Below, one piece after another: positions 16,406-23,942 of a stretch of 64,000 bases of DNA. Where the stretch lies: positions 1,674,001-1,738,000 of the forward strand of contig JAFHKN010000002.1 of the NCBI GenBank assembly GCA_016937575.1, read 5' to 3'. A program made the translations under genes and the position numbers. Every line of letters begins with the position of its first letter. Within the stretch, counting starts at the first letter, position 1. The notes beneath the pieces were generated by a model. That model was not told the DNA's origin, made no database searches, and was given only the letters and a program-made list of their open reading frames with translations. The DNA is from Roseomonas aeriglobus. Its GTDB lineage: Bacteria > Pseudomonadota > Alphaproteobacteria > Sphingomonadales > Sphingomonadaceae.

Positions 16406-17044
16406 TCAGGCGCCTCGCCATCGCCAGAGGAGCAGCGGCCGGCACAGCAGCACGCCGAGCAGGAAGCCGCCGATGTGCGCCGCCGCGGCGATCGGCATTC
16501 CCGCCTGTGCGCTCAGCACGCCGATCGCAAGATTCAGGACGGTCCAGGCGGCGAGCAGCCACAGCACGTGAAGCAGCCAGCCAGGCAGCGGGCCGAGATC
16601 GCGCGTCTTCTGCCGCCCATAGAGCAGCGCATAAGCCCCGACGATCGCCGACGCCGCGCCGCTCGCCCCGATCATCGGCACGGGTGACTGCGGCCCGACC
16701 GCCCATTGCGCGACACAGGCCGCATAGGCGCCGAGCAGGTAGAGGATCATGACTCCGCGACTGCCCAGCGCGCGTTCGGTGGCGATCCCGCAATAGACGA
16801 GCGTGACGAGGTTGAAGGCAAGATGCAGCGGTCCGGCGTGGACCAGCGTGGCGCTCAGCGGGGTCAGGCTGACGGGAAACAGCCCAGGCACGTCACCGGC
16901 AAACCCCAGGCTGGCGCGCGCCGGCATGAAACCAGCGTAAAGCGCTGCGTGCTGCTCAAGCCCGAACAGTGTCACGATCAGGCTGACGATCGCGGTGATC
17001 CCCGCGATCGCGATCGTGGCGGGGGCGCCCCTAAACAGATACAT
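16406..17044 (-). CDS. Rhomboid-family intramembrane serine protease
   Basis: A 212-residue protein with six hydrophobic segments. The catalytic serine is S128 in GASGA, and the partner histidine is H190 in AAAHIGGF. The upstream histidines and asparagine of the oxyanion region lie at H69, H74 and N78 (LVHAGPLHLAFN). This is the six-helix bacterial rhomboid core. An ATG at 17044 is preferred over a TTG two codons upstream. Substrates cannot be inferred. It converges with carbonic anhydrase; the inverted repeat at 17053-17150 sits directly upstream. Confidence 0.9.
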   Translation of the reverse strand: MYLFRGAPATIAIAGITAIVSLIVTLFGLEQHAALYAGFMPARASLGFAGDVPGLFPVSLTPLSATLVHAGPLHLAFNLVTLVYCGIATERALGSRGVMILYLLGAYAACVAQWAVGPQSPVPMIGASGAASAIVGAYALLYGRQKTRDLGPLPGWLLHVLWLLAAWTVLNLAIGVLSAQAGMPIAAAAHIGGFLLGVLLCRPLLLWRWRGA

Positions 17045-17052
17045 CGACAAAT

Positions 17053-17150
17053 CCGTTCGTCCTGAGCTTGTCGAAGGACCGTCCTACGACACGCCCGCGC
17101 GTTGCCCGCGGCACAGAGTAGAGTGCTTCGACAAGCTCAGCACGAACGGG
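17053..17150. repeat. Intergenic inverted-repeat element (CGTTCGTCCTGAGC type)
   Basis: Arms CCGTTCGTCCTGAGCTTGTC.. (17053-17077) and ..GACAAGCTCAGCACGAACGG (17126-17150) are near-perfect inverted copies around a ~48-base spacer. The same arm sequence recurs in variants at 23431-23506, 23849-23926 and 61789-61887 in this window. Confidence 0.85.
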
Positions 17151-17165
17151 GGTGTGACCTCAAAT

Positions 17166-17642
17166 TCAGATGAATTCGATCTTGTTGACCAGATAATATC
17201 GGTCGCCCGCCGGCACCGATACCTCGACCTCGTCATCGACCTTGCGTCCGATCAGCGCGCGGCCGAGCGGCGAGTTATAGCTGATACGACCGGTTTTCGC
17301 GTCCGCTTCGGTCTGGCCGACGATCTGATATTTGATCGGCTTGTCGTCCTCGTCGAGCAGAGTGACGGTCGCGCCGAACACGACCTTGTCGCCCGACAGG
17401 TCCTTGGGATCGATGATCTGCGCCCGGGACAGCTTGTCCTCGATGTCGGCGATCGACGCCTCGATCTGGCCCTGCCGTTCCTTTGCCGCATGATATTCGG
17501 CGTTTTCGGACAGGTCGCCGTGCGCGCGCGCTTCCTCGATCGCATCGACGATCTGCGGCCGTTCTTCCTTCAGACGCTTCAGATCGGCGTGGAGCTTCTC
17601 ATAGCCCTCGGCCAGCATCGGCATCTTCTCGACGGTCGCCAT
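17166..17642 (-). CDS. greA: Transcription elongation factor GreA
   Basis: A 158-residue factor that enters the RNA polymerase secondary channel and stimulates cleavage of backtracked transcripts. The N-terminal coiled coil (residues 1-78) ends in the acidic tip ([20 protein letters not shown]) with the conserved D and E needed for cleavage. The C-terminal FKBP-like domain contains [18 protein letters not shown]. Standard length and ATG start. A paralogous GreB lies at 48625. Sits upstream of carB with an 80-base gap. Confidence 0.96.
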
Positions 17643-17719: not shown

Positions 17720-20700
17720 TCAGTTGTGCGACTGCGAATAATAGGCCTGCAGGGGCCGTACTTCAAGGGAGGTGCGTGCCAGCGCCGCGATCGCCTGCGC
17801 CGCCGCCACGCTCGCCGAAGCGGTCGTGAAATACGGTACCTTCTGCGCGAGCGCCGACTTGCGGATATCCTGGCTGTCCTTGAGCGACTGCCAGCCTTCG
17901 GTCGTGTTGAAGATCAGCGCCACATCGCCGTCGCGGATGCGATCGACGATGTTCGGGCGGCCCTGCGCGACTTTCAGCACCGGCTCCACGGTCACGCCGT
18001 TCGCCAGCAGATAATCCGCCGTGCCGCCGGTCGCGATGATGGTGAAACCCTGTTCGGCCAGGATGCGCACGCCCGGCAGGACGACCGGCTTGTCGCTATC
18101 CTTGACGCTGACGAACACCGTGCCGCCCTTTGGCAGGACCGTCCCCGCCCCGAGCTGCGCCTTGGCAAAGGCGATGTCGAAATCGCGATCGATTCCCATG
18201 ACTTCGCCGGTCGACTTCATTTCCGGTGACAGGACCGGATCGACGCCGGGGAAGCGGTTGAACGGGAAGACGGCTTCCTTGACCGCGATATGGCCTTGCG
18301 CCGTGTTGATCTTCGGCAGATCAGCCAGCTTCTCGCCGGCCATCACGCGGCTTGCGATCTTTGCGATCGGCGATCCCACCGCCTTGGCGACGAACGGCAC
18401 CGTGCGGCTGGCGCGCGGGTTGACCTCGATGAGGTACACGACGCCGTCCTTCACCGCGAACTGGATATTCATCAGTCCGACGACGCCCAGCGCGCGGGCT
18501 AGGCTATCGGCCTGCCGCTCGATCTCGGCGATCAAGTCGGCGGGCAGGCTGTACGGCGGCAGGGTGCAGGCGCTGTCGCCAGAGTGCACGCCGGCTTCCT
18601 CGATATGCTGCATCACGCCGGCCACGACCACATCGGTGCCGTCGCAGATCGCATCGACGTCGACTTCGATCGCGTCGCGCAAATAGCTGTCGATCAGCAC
18701 CGGCGAGTCGCCCGACACCTGCACCGCGGTCTGGATATAGTTGTCGAGCTGGGCGACGGTATCGACCACTTCCATGGCGCGCCCGCCGAGCACATAGCTC
18801 GGGCGCATCAGCACCGGGTAACCGATCCGCTCGGCCACCGCGATCGCCTCTTCACGGCTGCGCGCGATGCCGTTGGCCGGCTGCTTGAGGCCGAGCTTGG
18901 CGACGAGGGCTGCAAAGCGCTCGCGGTCCTCCGCCAGATCGATCGCGTCCGGGCTGGTCCCCAGGATCGGGATGCCGGCGGCTTCCAGCGCCTTGGCGAG
19001 GTTGAGCGGCGTCTGCCCGCCGAACTGGACGATCACGCCGACCAGCTCGCCCGACTGCTGTTCGACGTGCAGGATCTCCAGCACGTCCTCGGCGGTCAGC
19101 GGCTCGAAATAGAGGCGGTCGGACGTGTCATAGTCGGTGCTGACCGTTTCCGGGTTGCAGTTGACCATGATCGTCTCGAAGCCTGCGTCCGCCAGCGCGA
19201 AGCAGGCGTGGCAGCAGCAGTAATCGAATTCGATCCCCTGCCCGATCCGGTTCGGACCACCGCCCAGGATCACGATCTTGCGCCGATCCGACGGCATCGC
19301 CTCGTTCTCGGGTTCGCCGAAGCTGGGCGCTTCGTAGGTCGAGTACATGTACGGCGTCTTGGCGTCGAATTCGGCCGCGCATGTGTCGATCCGCTTGAAG
19401 ACCGGACGCACGCCCAGCTTCAGACGGTGCTCGCGCACCTCATCCTCAGTGACGCCACCGGTCATCGCCTTGACCGCTTCGTGGATCAGGCCCGACCCGC
19501 GCGCGATGCCGCGCTGCATGCCGCGCAGATTGGCCGACTGCAGCGCCAGCCACGCCAGACGCTTGTCGCTGAAGCCCATCGCCTTCAGCCGGCGCATGCC
19601 GACCGCGTCGATCGGCAGGCCGTTGGTGCAGACTTCCTTCTCGGCCTCGACGATCTCGGCGATCCGCTCCAGGAACCAGGGATCGAACTTGGCGATCGCG
19701 TGGACTTCGGCAACCGTGAAGCCTTCGCGCAGCGCCTGCGCCGCGACCAGCAAACGGTCGGGCGTCGCGACGGCGAGCGCCGCCTCGATCTCCTCGCGCG
19801 GGCGGCCGGCGATCCGGTCGACCGTGTTGAAGCCGCTCAGGCCCGTCTCAAGTCCACGCAGCGCCTTCTGCATCGATTCGTGGATGTTGCGGCCGATCGC
19901 CATGACTTCGCCGACCGACTTCATCGCGGTGCCCAGCGTCGCTTCGGCGCCCTTGAACTTCTCGAAGGCGAAGCGCGGGATCTTGGTGACGACGTAATCG
20001 ATCGTCGGCTCGAACGACGCCGGCGTCGCGCCGGTGATGTCGTTGGTGATTTCATCGAGCGTATAGCCGACCGCCAGTTTCGCCGCGACCTTGGCGATGG
20101 GGAAGCCGGTGGCCTTCGACGCCAGCGCCGACGAGCGGCTGACGCGCGGATTCATCTCGATGACGATCAGGCGGCCGTCCTTCGGATTGACCGAGAACTG
20201 TACGTTCGAACCGCCTGTTTCGACGCCGATTTCCCGGAGGACCGCGATCGATGCATTACGCATGATCTGATATTCCTTGTCGGTCAGCGTCAGCGCCGGG
20301 GCGACCGTGATCGAGTCGCCCGTATGGACGCCCATCGGGTCGATATTCTCGATCGAACAGACGATGATCGCGTTATCCGCACGGTCGCGGACCACCTCCA
20401 TCTCATATTCCTTCCAGCCGAGCAGCGATTCCTCGATCAGCACTTCGGTGGTCGGCGACAGGTCCAGCCCCTTGCGGACGATCTCGACGAACTCCTCGCG
20501 GTTGTAGGCGATGCCCCCGCCGGTGCCGCCCAGCGTGAAGCTCGGACGGATGACGGCGGGCAGGCCGGTGAACTCCAGCCCTTCCAGCGCCTCTTCCAGC
20601 GTGTGCGCGATGGCCGAACGGGCGCTTTCCAGCCCGATCTTGGTCATGGCTTCCTTGAACTTCTGGCGGTCCTCGGCCTTGTCGATCGCCTCGGCATCGG

Positions 20701-21052
20701 CGCCGATCATCGTGACGCCGAACTTTTCCAGCGTGCCGTCGTGGAACAGCGCCAGCGCGGTGTTCAGCGCGGTCTGCCCGCCCATCGTCGGCAGGACGGC
20801 GTCGGGCCGCTCCTTCTCGATGATCTTGGCGACCACCTCGGGCGTGATCGGCTCGACATAGGTCGCGTCGGCCAGATCCGGATCGGTCATGATCGTCGCC
20901 GGATTGCTGTTCACCAGGACGATGCGATAGCCCTCTTCCTTCAGCGCCTTGATCGCCTGCGTGCCCGAATAATCAAACTCGCACGCCTGCCCGATAATGA
21001 TCGGACCCGCGCCGATGACGAGAATGGAGGAGATGTCGGTGCGTTTTGGCAT
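17720..21052 (-). CDS. carB: Carbamoyl phosphate synthase large subunit
   Basis: Makes carbamoyl phosphate for arginine and pyrimidine synthesis from bicarbonate, ATP and ammonia delivered by CarA. The 1110 residues include the two ATP-grasp halves (first: [30 protein letters not shown]; second: [29 protein letters not shown]) and the C-terminal MGS-like regulatory domain ([31 protein letters not shown] near residue 1010). The opening [20 protein letters not shown] is canonical. Its ATG shares a base with the stop of the low-GC gene that separates it from carA (TAATG at 21050-21054). Slightly longer than the E. coli enzyme (1073). Confidence 0.97.
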
Positions 21053-21678
21053 TAGGAGTTAATCACTTTCCAAATGACGTCGAGCAGCTTCTTCGCCAAC
21101 TCACCAATTGCGGCGCCACTAAATTTCTCAGCTAAATATCTTAGCGGAGTGGCCAAAACACCGACCAGAGCCTCTAAACGAACCCGCCTTGATCGAATGA
21201 CGCTTTTACCAGCTTCAAACTCTGCTACGATACGATCCTTTTGATCGCCTAAGGCACTCCCCGCTTCGTTAGACTGTGCTATTTCGCGACCGATCTCGTC
21301 TAACCCGTCCGCAATGGAGCTTCGCTGATTATCTGTGAGAGTAACTACTCTATCGGAAGCAGGCACTCCCTCCACGGGATTTTCGCTTTTAAGCAAAGCT
21401 CGAATAAGTGTTTCGGCCGCCTCCCAGCCCTTTGCAGTCAGCGTGTAATACGGCCCGTCTTCATCATATGACGACTCGTTCACCAGGCTGTCCTCATCTA
21501 GTGAGGCCATTACTTTCCGCAGGAAAACCTTACCGACCTTTGACCCGATAAGCTGCTGTATTTCCTGGATGCCATAGTACTCTTGAGAGTCGCTGACGTA
21601 ACTCGCGCGATATATCGCAGTGAGCGCCTCATTTCGCGCCGAGTTGAAGGAAAGGAACACGTCAGCCACGAGCTTCAC
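21052..21678 (-). CDS. Hypothetical protein inserted between carA and carB
   Basis: A 208-residue protein of no family I recognise. Residues 30-95 look like a winged-helix domain ([20 protein letters not shown]... [18 protein letters not shown]). Residues 105-160 are a charged helix ([33 protein letters not shown]). The C-terminus (about 165-205) is an amphipathic or membrane-active helix region ([19 protein letters not shown]). Base composition is clearly lower than its neighbours: 27 of 60 bases are G or C in 21121-21180. The start is unclear: GTG at 21678 overlaps the carA stop by 17 bases, and GTG at 21660 would begin just after it. The stop overlaps carB (TAATG). The helix-wing-helix plus terminal amphipathic layout resembles small accessory or defence-island proteins, but that is a guess. 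Confidence 0.75.
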
Positions 21679-22855
21679 TCACAAACCGCTCGAACAGATA
21701 AAAGCTATCCTGCGGCCCCGGGCTGGCCTCGGGGTGGTACTGCACCGAAAACGCCTTGCGGTCGGTCAGCTCCAGCCCGGCGTTGCTGCCGTCGAACAGC
21801 GACACGTGAGTTTCGCGCGCGTTGGCGGGCAGGCTGTCGCGTTCGACAGCGAAGCCGTGGTTCATCGACGTGATCTCGACCGCGCCGTCCTCCAGCCGCT
21901 TGACCGGATGGTTGGCCCCGCGGTGGCCCTGGAACATCTTGGTCGTGCGCGCGCCGACTGCGAGCGCGAGCAGCTGGTGGCCCAGGCAGATGCCGAACAG
22001 CGGCTTGGTCGTAGCGAGCAGCTGCTGGATCACCGGCACCGCATATTCGCCGGTCGCGGCAGGATCGCCTGGGCCGTTCGACAGGAAAATGCCGTCCGGG
22101 TTCAGCGCCATGATCTCGTCATAGGTCGCGGTCGCAGGGACCACCGATACCTTAGCTCCCGCCTTAACAAGGTTGCGGAAGATATTGTGTTTGCTGCCGT
22201 AATCGATCGCGACGACGTGCGGGCGAAAACCGGCTTTGGTGTGAACTTCGTGACCTTCGCCATCATAGCCGAAACCCAGCCGCCACACGCCGCCGGCGCG
22301 GTCCTCGCCCCAGCCGCCATGCGTCTCGCGCGTCACCGCCTTGGCGAGGTCCATGCCCTCCAGCCCCGGCCATTCGCGCGCCATCTGCTGGAGCAGCGAC
22401 ACGTCGAACTCGCCGCTGGCCGAATGCGCGATCACCCCGTTCGGCGCCCCGCCGACACGGATGCGGCGGGTCAGCGCACGGGTGTCGATGCCCGCCAGGC
22501 CGATCCGCGCATGCTTCTTCATCCAACGGTCGAGATGTTCGGCCGAACGGAAGTTGGACGGCTCGGTCACATCCTCGCGCACGATCATGCCGAGCGCATG
22601 GGGGTTGTCCGCCTCTACGTCGTCGGGGTTCGCGCCGACGTTGCCGATGTGCGGGAAGGTGAAGCAGATCATCTGGCCCGCAAACGACGGGTCGGTCATG
22701 ATCTCCTGATATCCGGTCATCGCCGTGTGAAAGCACACTTCGCCGACCGCCTGGCCTTCGGCGCCGAATCCTCGGCCCCACACGACCTCGCCGGATGCGA
22801 GGACTAGGACGCCGGTGGCGCCTTCGGGCACGGCGATGGGATCGGCGGCAGCCAT
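21662..22855 (-). CDS. carA: Carbamoyl phosphate synthase small subunit
   Basis: The glutaminase subunit that feeds ammonia to CarB. The 397-residue protein has the N-terminal CPSase domain (SGEVVWGRGFGAEG, TGYQEIMTDPSF, GIAGIDTRALTRRIR-like region reading GLAGIDTRALTRRI) and a C-terminal class I glutaminase with the nucleophile Cys in FGICLGHQLLALAVG and the catalytic H and E in QYHPEASPGP. SNGPGDP confirms the GATase fold. ATG at 22855. The usual direct carA-carB adjacency is broken by the gene at 21052-21678. Confidence 0.97.
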   Translation of the reverse strand: MAAADPIAVPEGATGVLVLASGEVVWGRGFGAEGQAVGEVCFHTAMTGYQEIMTDPSFAGQMICFTFPHIGNVGANPDDVEADNPHALGMIVREDVTEPSNFRSAEHLDRWMKKHARIGLAGIDTRALTRRIRVGGAPNGVIAHSASGEFDVSLLQQMAREWPGLEGMDLAKAVTRETHGGWGEDRAGGVWRLGFGYDGEGHEVHTKAGFRPHVVAIDYGSKHNIFRNLVKAGAKVSVVPATATYDEIMALNPDGIFLSNGPGDPAATGEYAVPVIQQLLATTKPLFGICLGHQLLALAVGARTTKMFQGHRGANHPVKRLEDGAVEITSMNHGFAVERDSLPANARETHVSLFDGSNAGLELTDRKAFSVQYHPEASPGPQDSFYLFERFVSEARG

Positions 22856-22954
22856 GTCGGGCGGTCACTCCTGCGTCGGTTGTTGCAATGTCGCTAAGGC
22901 GCCGCCGCTAGGCCCCCTCGCCCGATCCGTCAACCGGCGGTATGGGCTTTCCCC

Positions 22955-23407
22955 ATGATTCGTGACGATATCAAAGCCGCCCAGATCGCCGCCATGAAAG
23001 CCGGCGACAAGGATTCCCGCAACGCGATCAGCCTGATCCAGGCCGCGATCAAGAACCGCGACATCGAAGCGCGCACCGGAAAGGCGCCCGACAGCGACGA
23101 CGCGCTGGTGGTCGAAGTGCTGCAGAGGATGGTGAAGCAGCGCCGCGAATCGATCGAGATGTACGAGAAAGGCGGCCGACCGGAACTGGCTGCAGCCGAG
23201 GCAGCCGAAGTCGCGGTGATCGAGCGTTTCCTGCCGGCAGTCATGTCGGACGCTGAAACGACCGCAGCGATCGAGGCGATCAAGGCCGAGATTGGCGCGG
23301 CCGGCATGAAGGACATGGGCCGCGTAATGGCGGAACTGAAGGCGCGCCACGCGGCGAACCTCGATATGGCGAAGGCGAGCGGGCTGGTGAAGGCGGCACT
23401 GGGGTAA
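22955..23407 (+). CDS. GatB/YqeY domain-containing protein
   Basis: A 150-residue YqeY-type protein, homologous to the tail domain of the amidotransferase subunit GatB that contacts tRNA. Typical segments are MIRDDIKAAQIAAMKAGDK, SLIQAAIKNRDIE, RRESIEMYEKGGRPELAAAE, IERFLPAVMS and MGRVMAELKARH. Its exact role is not established. The start follows the 100-base region divergent from carA. This gene is often found just upstream of dnaG and rpoD, as it is here. Confidence 0.92.
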   Translation: MIRDDIKAAQIAAMKAGDKDSRNAISLIQAAIKNRDIEARTGKAPDSDDALVVEVLQRMVKQRRESIEMYEKGGRPELAAAEAAEVAVIERFLPAVMSDAETTAAIEAIKAEIGAAGMKDMGRVMAELKARHAANLDMAKASGLVKAALG

Positions 23408-23430: not shown

Positions 23431-23506
23431 TACGCTCGGGACGAACGGATGGGGTGGGCCCGCGCCCGACACTGACACCGTTCGTCCCTAGCGAAGTCGA
23501 AGGACA
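23431..23506. repeat. Intergenic inverted-repeat element
   Basis: Arms ACGCTCGGGACGAACGG (from 23431) and CCGTTCGTCCCTAGCGAAGTCG.. (to 23506) form an imperfect inverted repeat related to the elements at 17053 and 23849. It lies between the yqeY-like gene and the GIY-YIG gene. Confidence 0.75.
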
Positions 23507-23561
23507 GGCCAACCCCCCTTTCCTCTCGACTCGAATCGCCCCCGTCTGTCACAGCGTAGCG

Positions 23562-23942
23562 ATGGCGTTCTGGACCTATATTCTGCGGTGCGCCGATGGC
23601 CGACACGATACCGGCCATACCGACAACCTCGACGGCCGGATCGCGGAGCATGACGCTGGCGGATATTGCGACGTCACAGCACGCCGCCAGCCAGCGATGC
23701 CGGTTTGCTTCCAAGATTTCCCGACACGGATCGAGGCGCTCGAAGCCGAACTCTCCATCAGTCCGTGGGCGCGCAAGAAGAAAGAGGCGCTGATCGCCGG
23801 TGATTGGGCCGCGCTGTCCTACTGGGCAAAGCCCCCCGCTGAGCGTCGCTCGACGTCGCTCGGGACGAACGGCGGGCAGGATGAGGCGGTGTCGAACCAT
23901 CTGTTCGTCCCGAGCAAAGTCGAGGGGCCGTCTTACCCATGA
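23562..23942 (+). CDS. GIY-YIG-type protein with a repeat-derived C-terminus
   Basis: A 126-residue protein. Residues 1-85 are a small UvrC/SLX1-like GIY-YIG domain (WTYILRCADG, GHTDNLDGRIAEHDAGGY, IEALEAELSI, WARKKKEALI). The second motif, usually YYxG or YVG, reads RHDTG, so the second catalytic tyrosine is replaced; Arg in DGR and the Glu in EALEAE are kept. The last ~30 residues ([10 protein letters not shown]... VPSKVEGPS) are the translation of the inverted repeat at 23849-23926, not family sequence. The stop overlaps the dnaG start (ATGA at 23939-23942). Nuclease activity is therefore doubtful. Confidence 0.75.
   Translation: MAFWTYILRCADGRHDTGHTDNLDGRIAEHDAGGYCDVTARRQPAMPVCFQDFPTRIEALEAELSISPWARKKKEALIAGDWAALSYWAKPPAERRSTSLGTNGGQDEAVSNHLFVPSKVEGPSYP
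23849..23926. repeat. Inverted repeat inside the 3' end of the GIY-YIG gene
   Basis: Arms CTCGACGTCGCTCGGGACGA.. (23849-23872) and CTGTTCGTCCCGAGCAAAGT.. (23901-23926). It is the same family as 17053-17150 and has been absorbed into the reading frame of the preceding gene. Confidence 0.8.

Follow-up and report, generated by a model that had tools for sequence, protein, structure and literature searches.

The DNA analysed here is a stretch of 64 kb, referred to below as the window. On its minus strand an ORF is situated between carA and carB, the genes for the small and large subunits of carbamoyl-phosphate synthase, and greA follows carB. The interval between carA and carB is referred to as the slot. 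The features relevant to this report are as follows.

21662..22855, minus strand: carA, carbamoyl-phosphate synthase small subunit, from its ORF; left border of the slot
21052..21660, minus strand: slot gene, 202 aa from the GTG at 21660, from its ORF and eight homologues
21385..21660, minus strand: head of the slot protein, winged-helix domain in the order helix-helix-helix-strand-strand-helix, from AlphaFold2
21055..21372, minus strand: tail of the slot protein, a conserved domain of 106 residues, predicted four-helix bundle, from alignments A1, A2 and A7 and the model
21349..21363, minus strand: PASDR motif at the start of the tail, from alignment A1
21050..21054, minus strand: TAATG, the slot-gene stop overlapping the carB start, from the sequence letters
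17720..21052, minus strand: carB, carbamoyl-phosphate synthase large subunit, from its ORF; right border of the slot
17166..17642, minus strand: greA, which forms the control junction with carB (77 nt gap in the window)

An earlier note on this DNA had placed an ORF of about 208 aa at 21052–21678, and this ORF is present, on the minus strand and with 208 aa from a GTG. Its overlap with carB through TAATG is also real: AACTCCTAATGCCAAAA. The 17-nt overlap with carA is doubtful. Eight full-length relatives of the protein, of 202–204 aa, align from the Met encoded by the GTG at 21660, one base after the carA stop codon (TGACGTG). The overlap is therefore probably an annotation effect, and the gene probably starts at GTG 21660 and encodes a protein of 202 aa. 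A third recorded start lies at 21669 (205 aa; P0001). Since the eight homologues are 44–59% identical, the gene is not an ORF by mere chance. A search for close homologues at the DNA level found none.

The gene fits into the carAB operon, as had been suggested. No sigma70-like promoter was found in 20700–23100, which is slight evidence, and terminator-like sites in that interval occur at the shuffled expectation. These results are compatible with co-transcription of the slot gene with carA and carB.

The gene had also been described as poor in G+C. This holds for the gene as a whole, with a G+C content of 0.507 (GC3 0.53) compared with 0.661 (0.83) for carA and 0.652 (0.87) for carB. When 1,268 windows of 609 nt were taken across the 64 kb, values of 0.54 or less were obtained only for those starting at 20800–21150, which overlap the slot gene. 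The count originally offered, 27/60 G+C in 21121–21180, is correct, yet not striking by itself, as counts this low were found in 34 of 6,394 60-nt windows. Elsewhere in the window, at 23454–23942 and 16995–17200, repeated peptide-like strings (VPSEVEG, S-LGTNG) were observed that resemble translated dispersed repeats; the ORF there includes what we take to be a GIY-YIG-like stretch.

The carA-carB junction in sphingomonads is a hypervariable slot, usually holding one gene in register with both neighbours. The C-terminal 197 residues of CarA were matched in 198 of 199 genomes and the first 200 residues of CarB in 195. Gaps between matched ends on one contig were obtained from the matches listed for 130 of the 199 genomes, that of the window included, with broken contigs and some listed rows left out. 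They ranged from 4 to 2,896 nt; for the 113 genomes of the same genus they began at 65 nt, with a median of 370 nt and the same upper limit of 2,896 nt. The junction was empty (gap below 100 nt) in 17 of the 130. The control gap, between carB and greA, measured 73–87 nt in 19 of 20 hand-chosen genomes of the same genus and 202 nt in the remaining one. Among at least 80 loci with named records, gaps outside the Alphaproteobacteria were mostly 11–169 nt, with one of 326 nt (L208), and those of Alphaproteobacteria extended from about 0 or 16–87 nt up to 4 kb. It is apparent that many alphaproteobacteria keep one interchangeable extra gene between carA and carB.

One hundred of the 130 junctions were read, comprising all gaps of at most 225 nt or at least 403 nt, plus 20 of the 50 in between. 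At least 180 nt separated carA from carB in 83 of them, and in 67 of these 83 a single co-oriented ORF spanned more than 80% of the gap. An ATGA-type start, 4 nt inside the carA stop, was observed at 40 of the 67 single-ORF junctions; the commonest end, at 31 of the 67, was the +1 offset, one base into carB. These ORFs were called mechanically, and a few of those counted (G067, G132 and G180) are probably spurious. Related strains without the slot gene are thus not simply empty at this site, as might have been expected from the earlier note: most junctions hold another gene.

The occupants are mixed. They include RraB-like, DUF4177 and DUF6680 proteins, outer-membrane barrels, small secreted-looking proteins and winged-helix-like proteins with a hydrophobic end, as well as genes of toxin-antitoxin type, namely PIN (G033, G067), FitA-like (L144) and NTase_sub_bind (L177). 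Occupants of close species are often unrelated. Seven close species hold five occupant groups that have no mutual match at E 1e-3, and their carB genes are 95–97% identical over 1,500 nt in the pairs listed, 19 of 21.

Two further groups of occupants were observed. In eight genomes of one other host family (f5), the slot holds a conserved outer-membrane barrel protein (L058, L059 and L061–L064, corresponding to G174, G162, G176, G186, G164 and G158, and also L076 and L078); in G145 and G141 both this barrel gene and a tail-protein gene lie in the slot. Several small secreted-looking proteins have a common C-terminal end, like LGFVGNE..E, and differing front parts (L098, L101, L102, L038, L039 and L050, corresponding to G065, G102, G064, G107, G030 and G031, and L149). 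They are perhaps a further group in the slot with a constant end and a variable front.

Abrupt changes of sequence coincide with the ATG of carB and, on the other side, fall within the final carA codons. No integrase was found in the gap of the window and no att-like site at its slot; the only repeats in 20900–21900 are a direct repeat of 11 nt and an inverted pair (76%). With no integrase in the unit, which is a bare gene, the simplest route for its exchange would be homologous recombination in the flanking carA and carB sequences. When carB was compared within a clade of ten genomes in 27 bins of 100 nt, conservation was highest in the first two (0.995 and 0.99), a result compatible with recombination in the flank but likewise with constraint. 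An attachment-site signature was considered and rejected, as blocks of equally low silent-site variation occur elsewhere (first 20 carB codons in 83 same-genus junctions; carB of 21 genomes). Degenerate copies of the first 17–40 carB codons were found upstream of the true carB in G079, G094 and G096 (loci L077, L073 and L074, respectively) and at L158:4234-4521, and the gap ORFs of the first three fall into one cluster with the ORFs of G033 and G067, the gaps of which bear PIN. It is possible that such partial copies of the carB 5′ end are scars of some insertions.

The protein encoded in the window is predicted to consist of two parts. The winged-helix region that had been proposed from the sequence is backed by an AlphaFold2 model with a pLDDT of 89. 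The tail, modelled alone, gave a pLDDT of 92 and a pTM of 0.80. The C-terminal amphipathic helix to which the earlier note drew attention is present; it is not a free or membrane helix but the last helix of the predicted soluble four-helix bundle. Reading that helix as a membrane pore was discarded, given that the highest Kyte-Doolittle 19-residue window of the slot protein reaches only 0.96 and a compact helical bundle is predicted.

At the start of the tail, in the 31 rows of alignment A1, the P, A, S and R of PASDR, together with a V and an N behind it, are at least 90% conserved and the D is invariant. The rows of A1 were not picked by the motif; those of A2, from which P0011, G047 and G093 were left out, were picked by the motif pattern, and PASDR conservation in A2 is biased for that reason. 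The motif is absent or unmatched in G047 and in three weak relatives from the class (G617, G813 and G819). The tail matched nothing in Pfam, NCBIfam or PADLOC. The whole protein had no match in NCBIfam, nor in PADLOC up to an E value of 10, and its score against HxlR was 12.8 bits, below the cut-off of 20.8; PadR gave one match among 36 family members. No prior account of the protein family was found among the literature searched, in line with the suggestion that this is an undescribed factor.

Relatives of the protein are distributed in an accessory, patchy manner, as had been supposed: they were found in 10 of the 199 genomes, that of the window included, and the tail in 27 of 396 genomes of the order. 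This patchiness and the low G+C content are the opposite of uniform presence by vertical descent with ordinary composition, the outcome that had been named as counting against the claim. All ten genomes have carB in the same 2–3.6 kb locus, and nine have carA there too; in the tenth, the tail gene is on a 3-kb contig. At some loci (e.g. G141) another gene stands between the tail gene and carB. The 27 Sphingomonadales genomes recovered with the tail profile represent 16 of 84 genera, and five are shared with the set of ten. In 24 of the 27 the tail relative is in the carA-carB slot; the three matches outside the slot are G383 (E 8e-16) and the weak G010 and G420 (E about 1e-5). In the class the profile matched 10 of 385 genomes, eight of them new. 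Five of these eight matches lie between carA and carB, and G624, G819 and the doubtful G555 lie elsewhere; the weaker class matches G617, G813 and G819 align only behind the PASDR part. The tail family is thus strongly concentrated in the carA-carB slot.

Four of 296 genomes of the order contain a second tail family, with the pattern WTG...EAPEP, each time between carA and carB; the alignment of this family (A5) consists of seven rows from slots. Homology of the two tails, VPASDR and WTG, is not claimed: profile comparison gave a probability of 4.9% and an E value of 0.008, and the single clustering link between them, G093–G101, is weak (E about 1e-5). The WTG protein of G119 and the VPASDR protein of G383 have a head in common at 29 bits, a weak match whose E values refer to a set of eight sequences.

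Mobile and viral sequences were searched as well. There was no match to the alignment of close relatives in genome contigs and viral contigs, to two tail proteins or one WTG protein in phages, or to the window protein or L117 in plasmids. Two weak, distant tail relatives of 182 aa (L137:1240-1788 and L136:1492-2040; E about 1e-5) were observed, one of them in a region that may be a prophage, near an ORF that is presumably HNH-like.

The relationship of the tails to their hosts was compared by means of a Mantel test. Tail distance and CarA+CarB distance had a Spearman correlation of 0.22 (n=32), a value equalled or exceeded in 53 of 2,000 permutations; the tail distances are large (least 0.34), so that the correlation may be reduced by saturation. 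By CarA+CarB, L120 and L135 are closest to each other (0.07), and their tails differ by 0.77; the tails of the more distant hosts L120 and L007 (0.18) differ by only 0.35. Among database proteins, for which only the sequence is available, the tails of P0018 and P0019 are 95% identical, whereas their heads are no more alike than by chance (z 0.9), and P0016 and P0018 have tails 89% identical and a head z of -0.6. One WTG protein has a DUF1508 head. On these comparisons, the tails track host distances weakly, and near-identical tails carry unrelated heads.

The G+C content was below that of the host carA in 28 of 28 slot members, by 12–22 points (about 17); L130, L262, L265 and L268 were left out of this count, as was L266, the start of which was not resolved. 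It nevertheless tracks the carA value of the host (Pearson 0.87, Spearman 0.57), and the pattern therefore does not look like one recent low-G+C donor of the slot genes. It suggests either a standing property of such genes or exchange among similar hosts.

Copies outside the slot provide the link to defence, and through them the phage-resistance role hinted at in the earlier note is indirectly supported. The copy in G383 lies approximately 0.6 kb from a protein that matches AbiJ_NTD4 (Pfam E 1e-10) and PADLOC PDC-S32 (E 2e-51). On a conjugative plasmid of Bradyrhizobium elkanii (NZ_CP126030.1), the tail protein starts 19 nt after a dCTP deaminase gene, which had no PADLOC match; a pyrophosphohydrolase and a uracil-DNA glycosylase are near, and a Shedu nuclease (SduA, E 4.5e-87) lies approximately 6.6 kb away. 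The copy in G624 is 0.6 kb from a tRNA-Arg gene, and its head matches PADLOC PDC-M14B (E 1e-6). One plasmid protein of Neorhizobium has a related head (tblastn E 7e-8; 45.9 bits) and a C-terminus that matches Cap12 (E 9.5e-8), with AbiEii-type and TIR genes nearby. Another related head belongs to a Polaromonas plasmid protein (L275:2872-3642; E 5e-10; 58.5 bits), which stands directly after pglX of a BREX-1 operon and whose main domain is that of the G624 head. Because the G624 head is shared with a Cap12-like TIR protein, the PASDR tail stands, by this sequence match, where another protein carries a TIR effector. An Ensifer plasmid encodes a protein with a WTG tail (E 8e-4 by tblastn; 60.6 bits against the WTG profile). 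Its gene comes after one for a PtuA-like ATPase (E 2.8e-7 at best, and 3.6e-6 against a chain with the name PtuA) and one annotated as HNH, for which structure-sequence search gave an E value of only 0.09.

The slot gene of the window does not itself reside beside defence genes, and no defence gene was recognised by eye in the 12.6 kb around the G819 copy. When 65 slot occupants were examined with PADLOC, only five single-member matches were obtained, with E values of 0.004–0.07, so that the case for immunity is carried by a few copies located elsewhere. Many other occupants are secreted-, outer-membrane- or RraB-like, and the slot is accordingly not a pure defence site.

On balance, we lean towards the explanation that the slot protein is an exchangeable, anti-phage sensor-effector riding in an essential operon. 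The protein would be made at a low level with the CarAB mRNA through translational coupling, and its variable head would recognise a signal derived from a phage or other invader. The tail would then act as an effector or adaptor, in the position occupied by the TIR domain in the related protein. As invaders change, diversifying recognition would favour the exchange of heads, with the tail kept. Winged helices are usually DNA-binding domains, which counts against a sensor-effector.

A bolder version is offered only tentatively. In alphaproteobacteria, the carA-carB junction would be a translationally coupled site of exchange that works without an integrase, and the head-tail immune family in it would diversify by replacing its heads; the four-helix PASDR tail would be an effector or adaptor module of a new kind, for which TIR or the WTG tail can substitute. 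From its site in the operon for pyrimidine supply, the protein might sense the supply of nucleotides during infection or restrict it, which would accord with the copy next to a dCTP deaminase. The linkage to carAB could instead reflect a role in carbamoyl-phosphate or pyrimidine metabolism.

Other explanations were considered. The first is that the gene is neutral or selfish cargo: a translationally coupled slot in an essential operon would be hard to lose without harm, so that any ORF that has landed there persists and drifts. The very mixed occupants, the G+C content below that of carA in every slot member examined (28 of 28) and the genes of toxin-antitoxin type among the occupants all speak for this explanation. 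It is nonetheless unlikely, since the tail residues conserved across distant relatives, the full-length homologues at 44–59% identity and the strong bias of location point to selection, and the empty junctions indicate that loss is possible.

It is also quite improbable that the protein is a local regulator of carAB, with the winged helix binding operon DNA, or the tail binding CarA or CarB, and so tuning carbamoyl-phosphate synthesis. The predicted winged-helix fold, the concentration of the tail family between carA and carB across Alphaproteobacteria and start and stop positions that fit coupled translation with both subunits would favour such a role. However, the 17 of 130 junctions with less than 100 nt have no room for the gene, seven close species hold five mutually unmatched occupant groups, the heads do not belong to a single DNA-binding family (PadR matched one of 36 members) and copies away from carAB exist. 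Least credible is a toxin, or half of a toxin-antitoxin-like unit with its partner elsewhere, kept by addiction: PIN, FitA-like and NTase_sub_bind genes (G033, G067; L144; L177) do occupy the same slot in other genomes, but the slot of the window holds a single gene with no adjacent partner, 67 of the 83 filled junctions that were read are largely taken up by one ORF, and empty junctions demonstrate that the slot can be without any gene.

A gene family tied to one spot in the genome and only weakly to host relationships, with interchangeable heads, is unusual. If the exchangeable sensor-effector favoured here is indeed an immune protein, an operon with a housekeeping role also serves as a docking site for immune genes that change, and the carA-carB gaps of alphaproteobacteria would be a simple source of defence candidates missed by island-based searches. 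Whatever the role of the protein, the PASDR tail is a new small domain with conserved residues, and the slot is a clean natural system for integrase-free exchange of single genes.

Several known systems invite comparison. Integron cassettes and integrase-borne islands differ from the slot of the window, at which neither an integrase nor att-like flanking repeats were found. The predicted head has the fold of the MarR, HxlR and PadR winged-helix proteins, but there is little support for such a relationship in sequence, and the head is fused to an unrelated constant tail. The TIR effectors of the Cap12 type are connected to the family by the head of the G624 tail protein, which is also that of the Neorhizobium protein with a Cap12-matching C-terminus; the G624 protein, however, has no TIR domain and carries the predicted four-helix tail in its place. 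The 6.4 kb read near the Neorhizobium protein have no CD-NTase annotation, and by eye none was recognised near the G624 copy. Some copies outside the slot are near genes typical of defence islands (AbiJ, Shedu, Septu-like, BREX), whereas the main home of the tail family is a metabolic operon.

No description of the carA-carB slot as an exchange site, nor of the head-tail protein family, was found in the literature searched, which lay mostly outside subscription journals. A carA-orf-carB arrangement was reportedly described for Pseudomonas aeruginosa in 1994, and Neisseria is said to have a variable carA-carB spacer. Xanthomonas citri has an ORF between carA and carB, of 444 bp and with a one-base overlap with the end of carA; it is without similarity to the ORF at the same place in P. 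aeruginosa (PMC4619228). The X. citri and P. aeruginosa ORFs are told there as single cases, whereas the slot described here was followed through 130 genomes; its occupants belong to many families, and a single tail family is concentrated in it.
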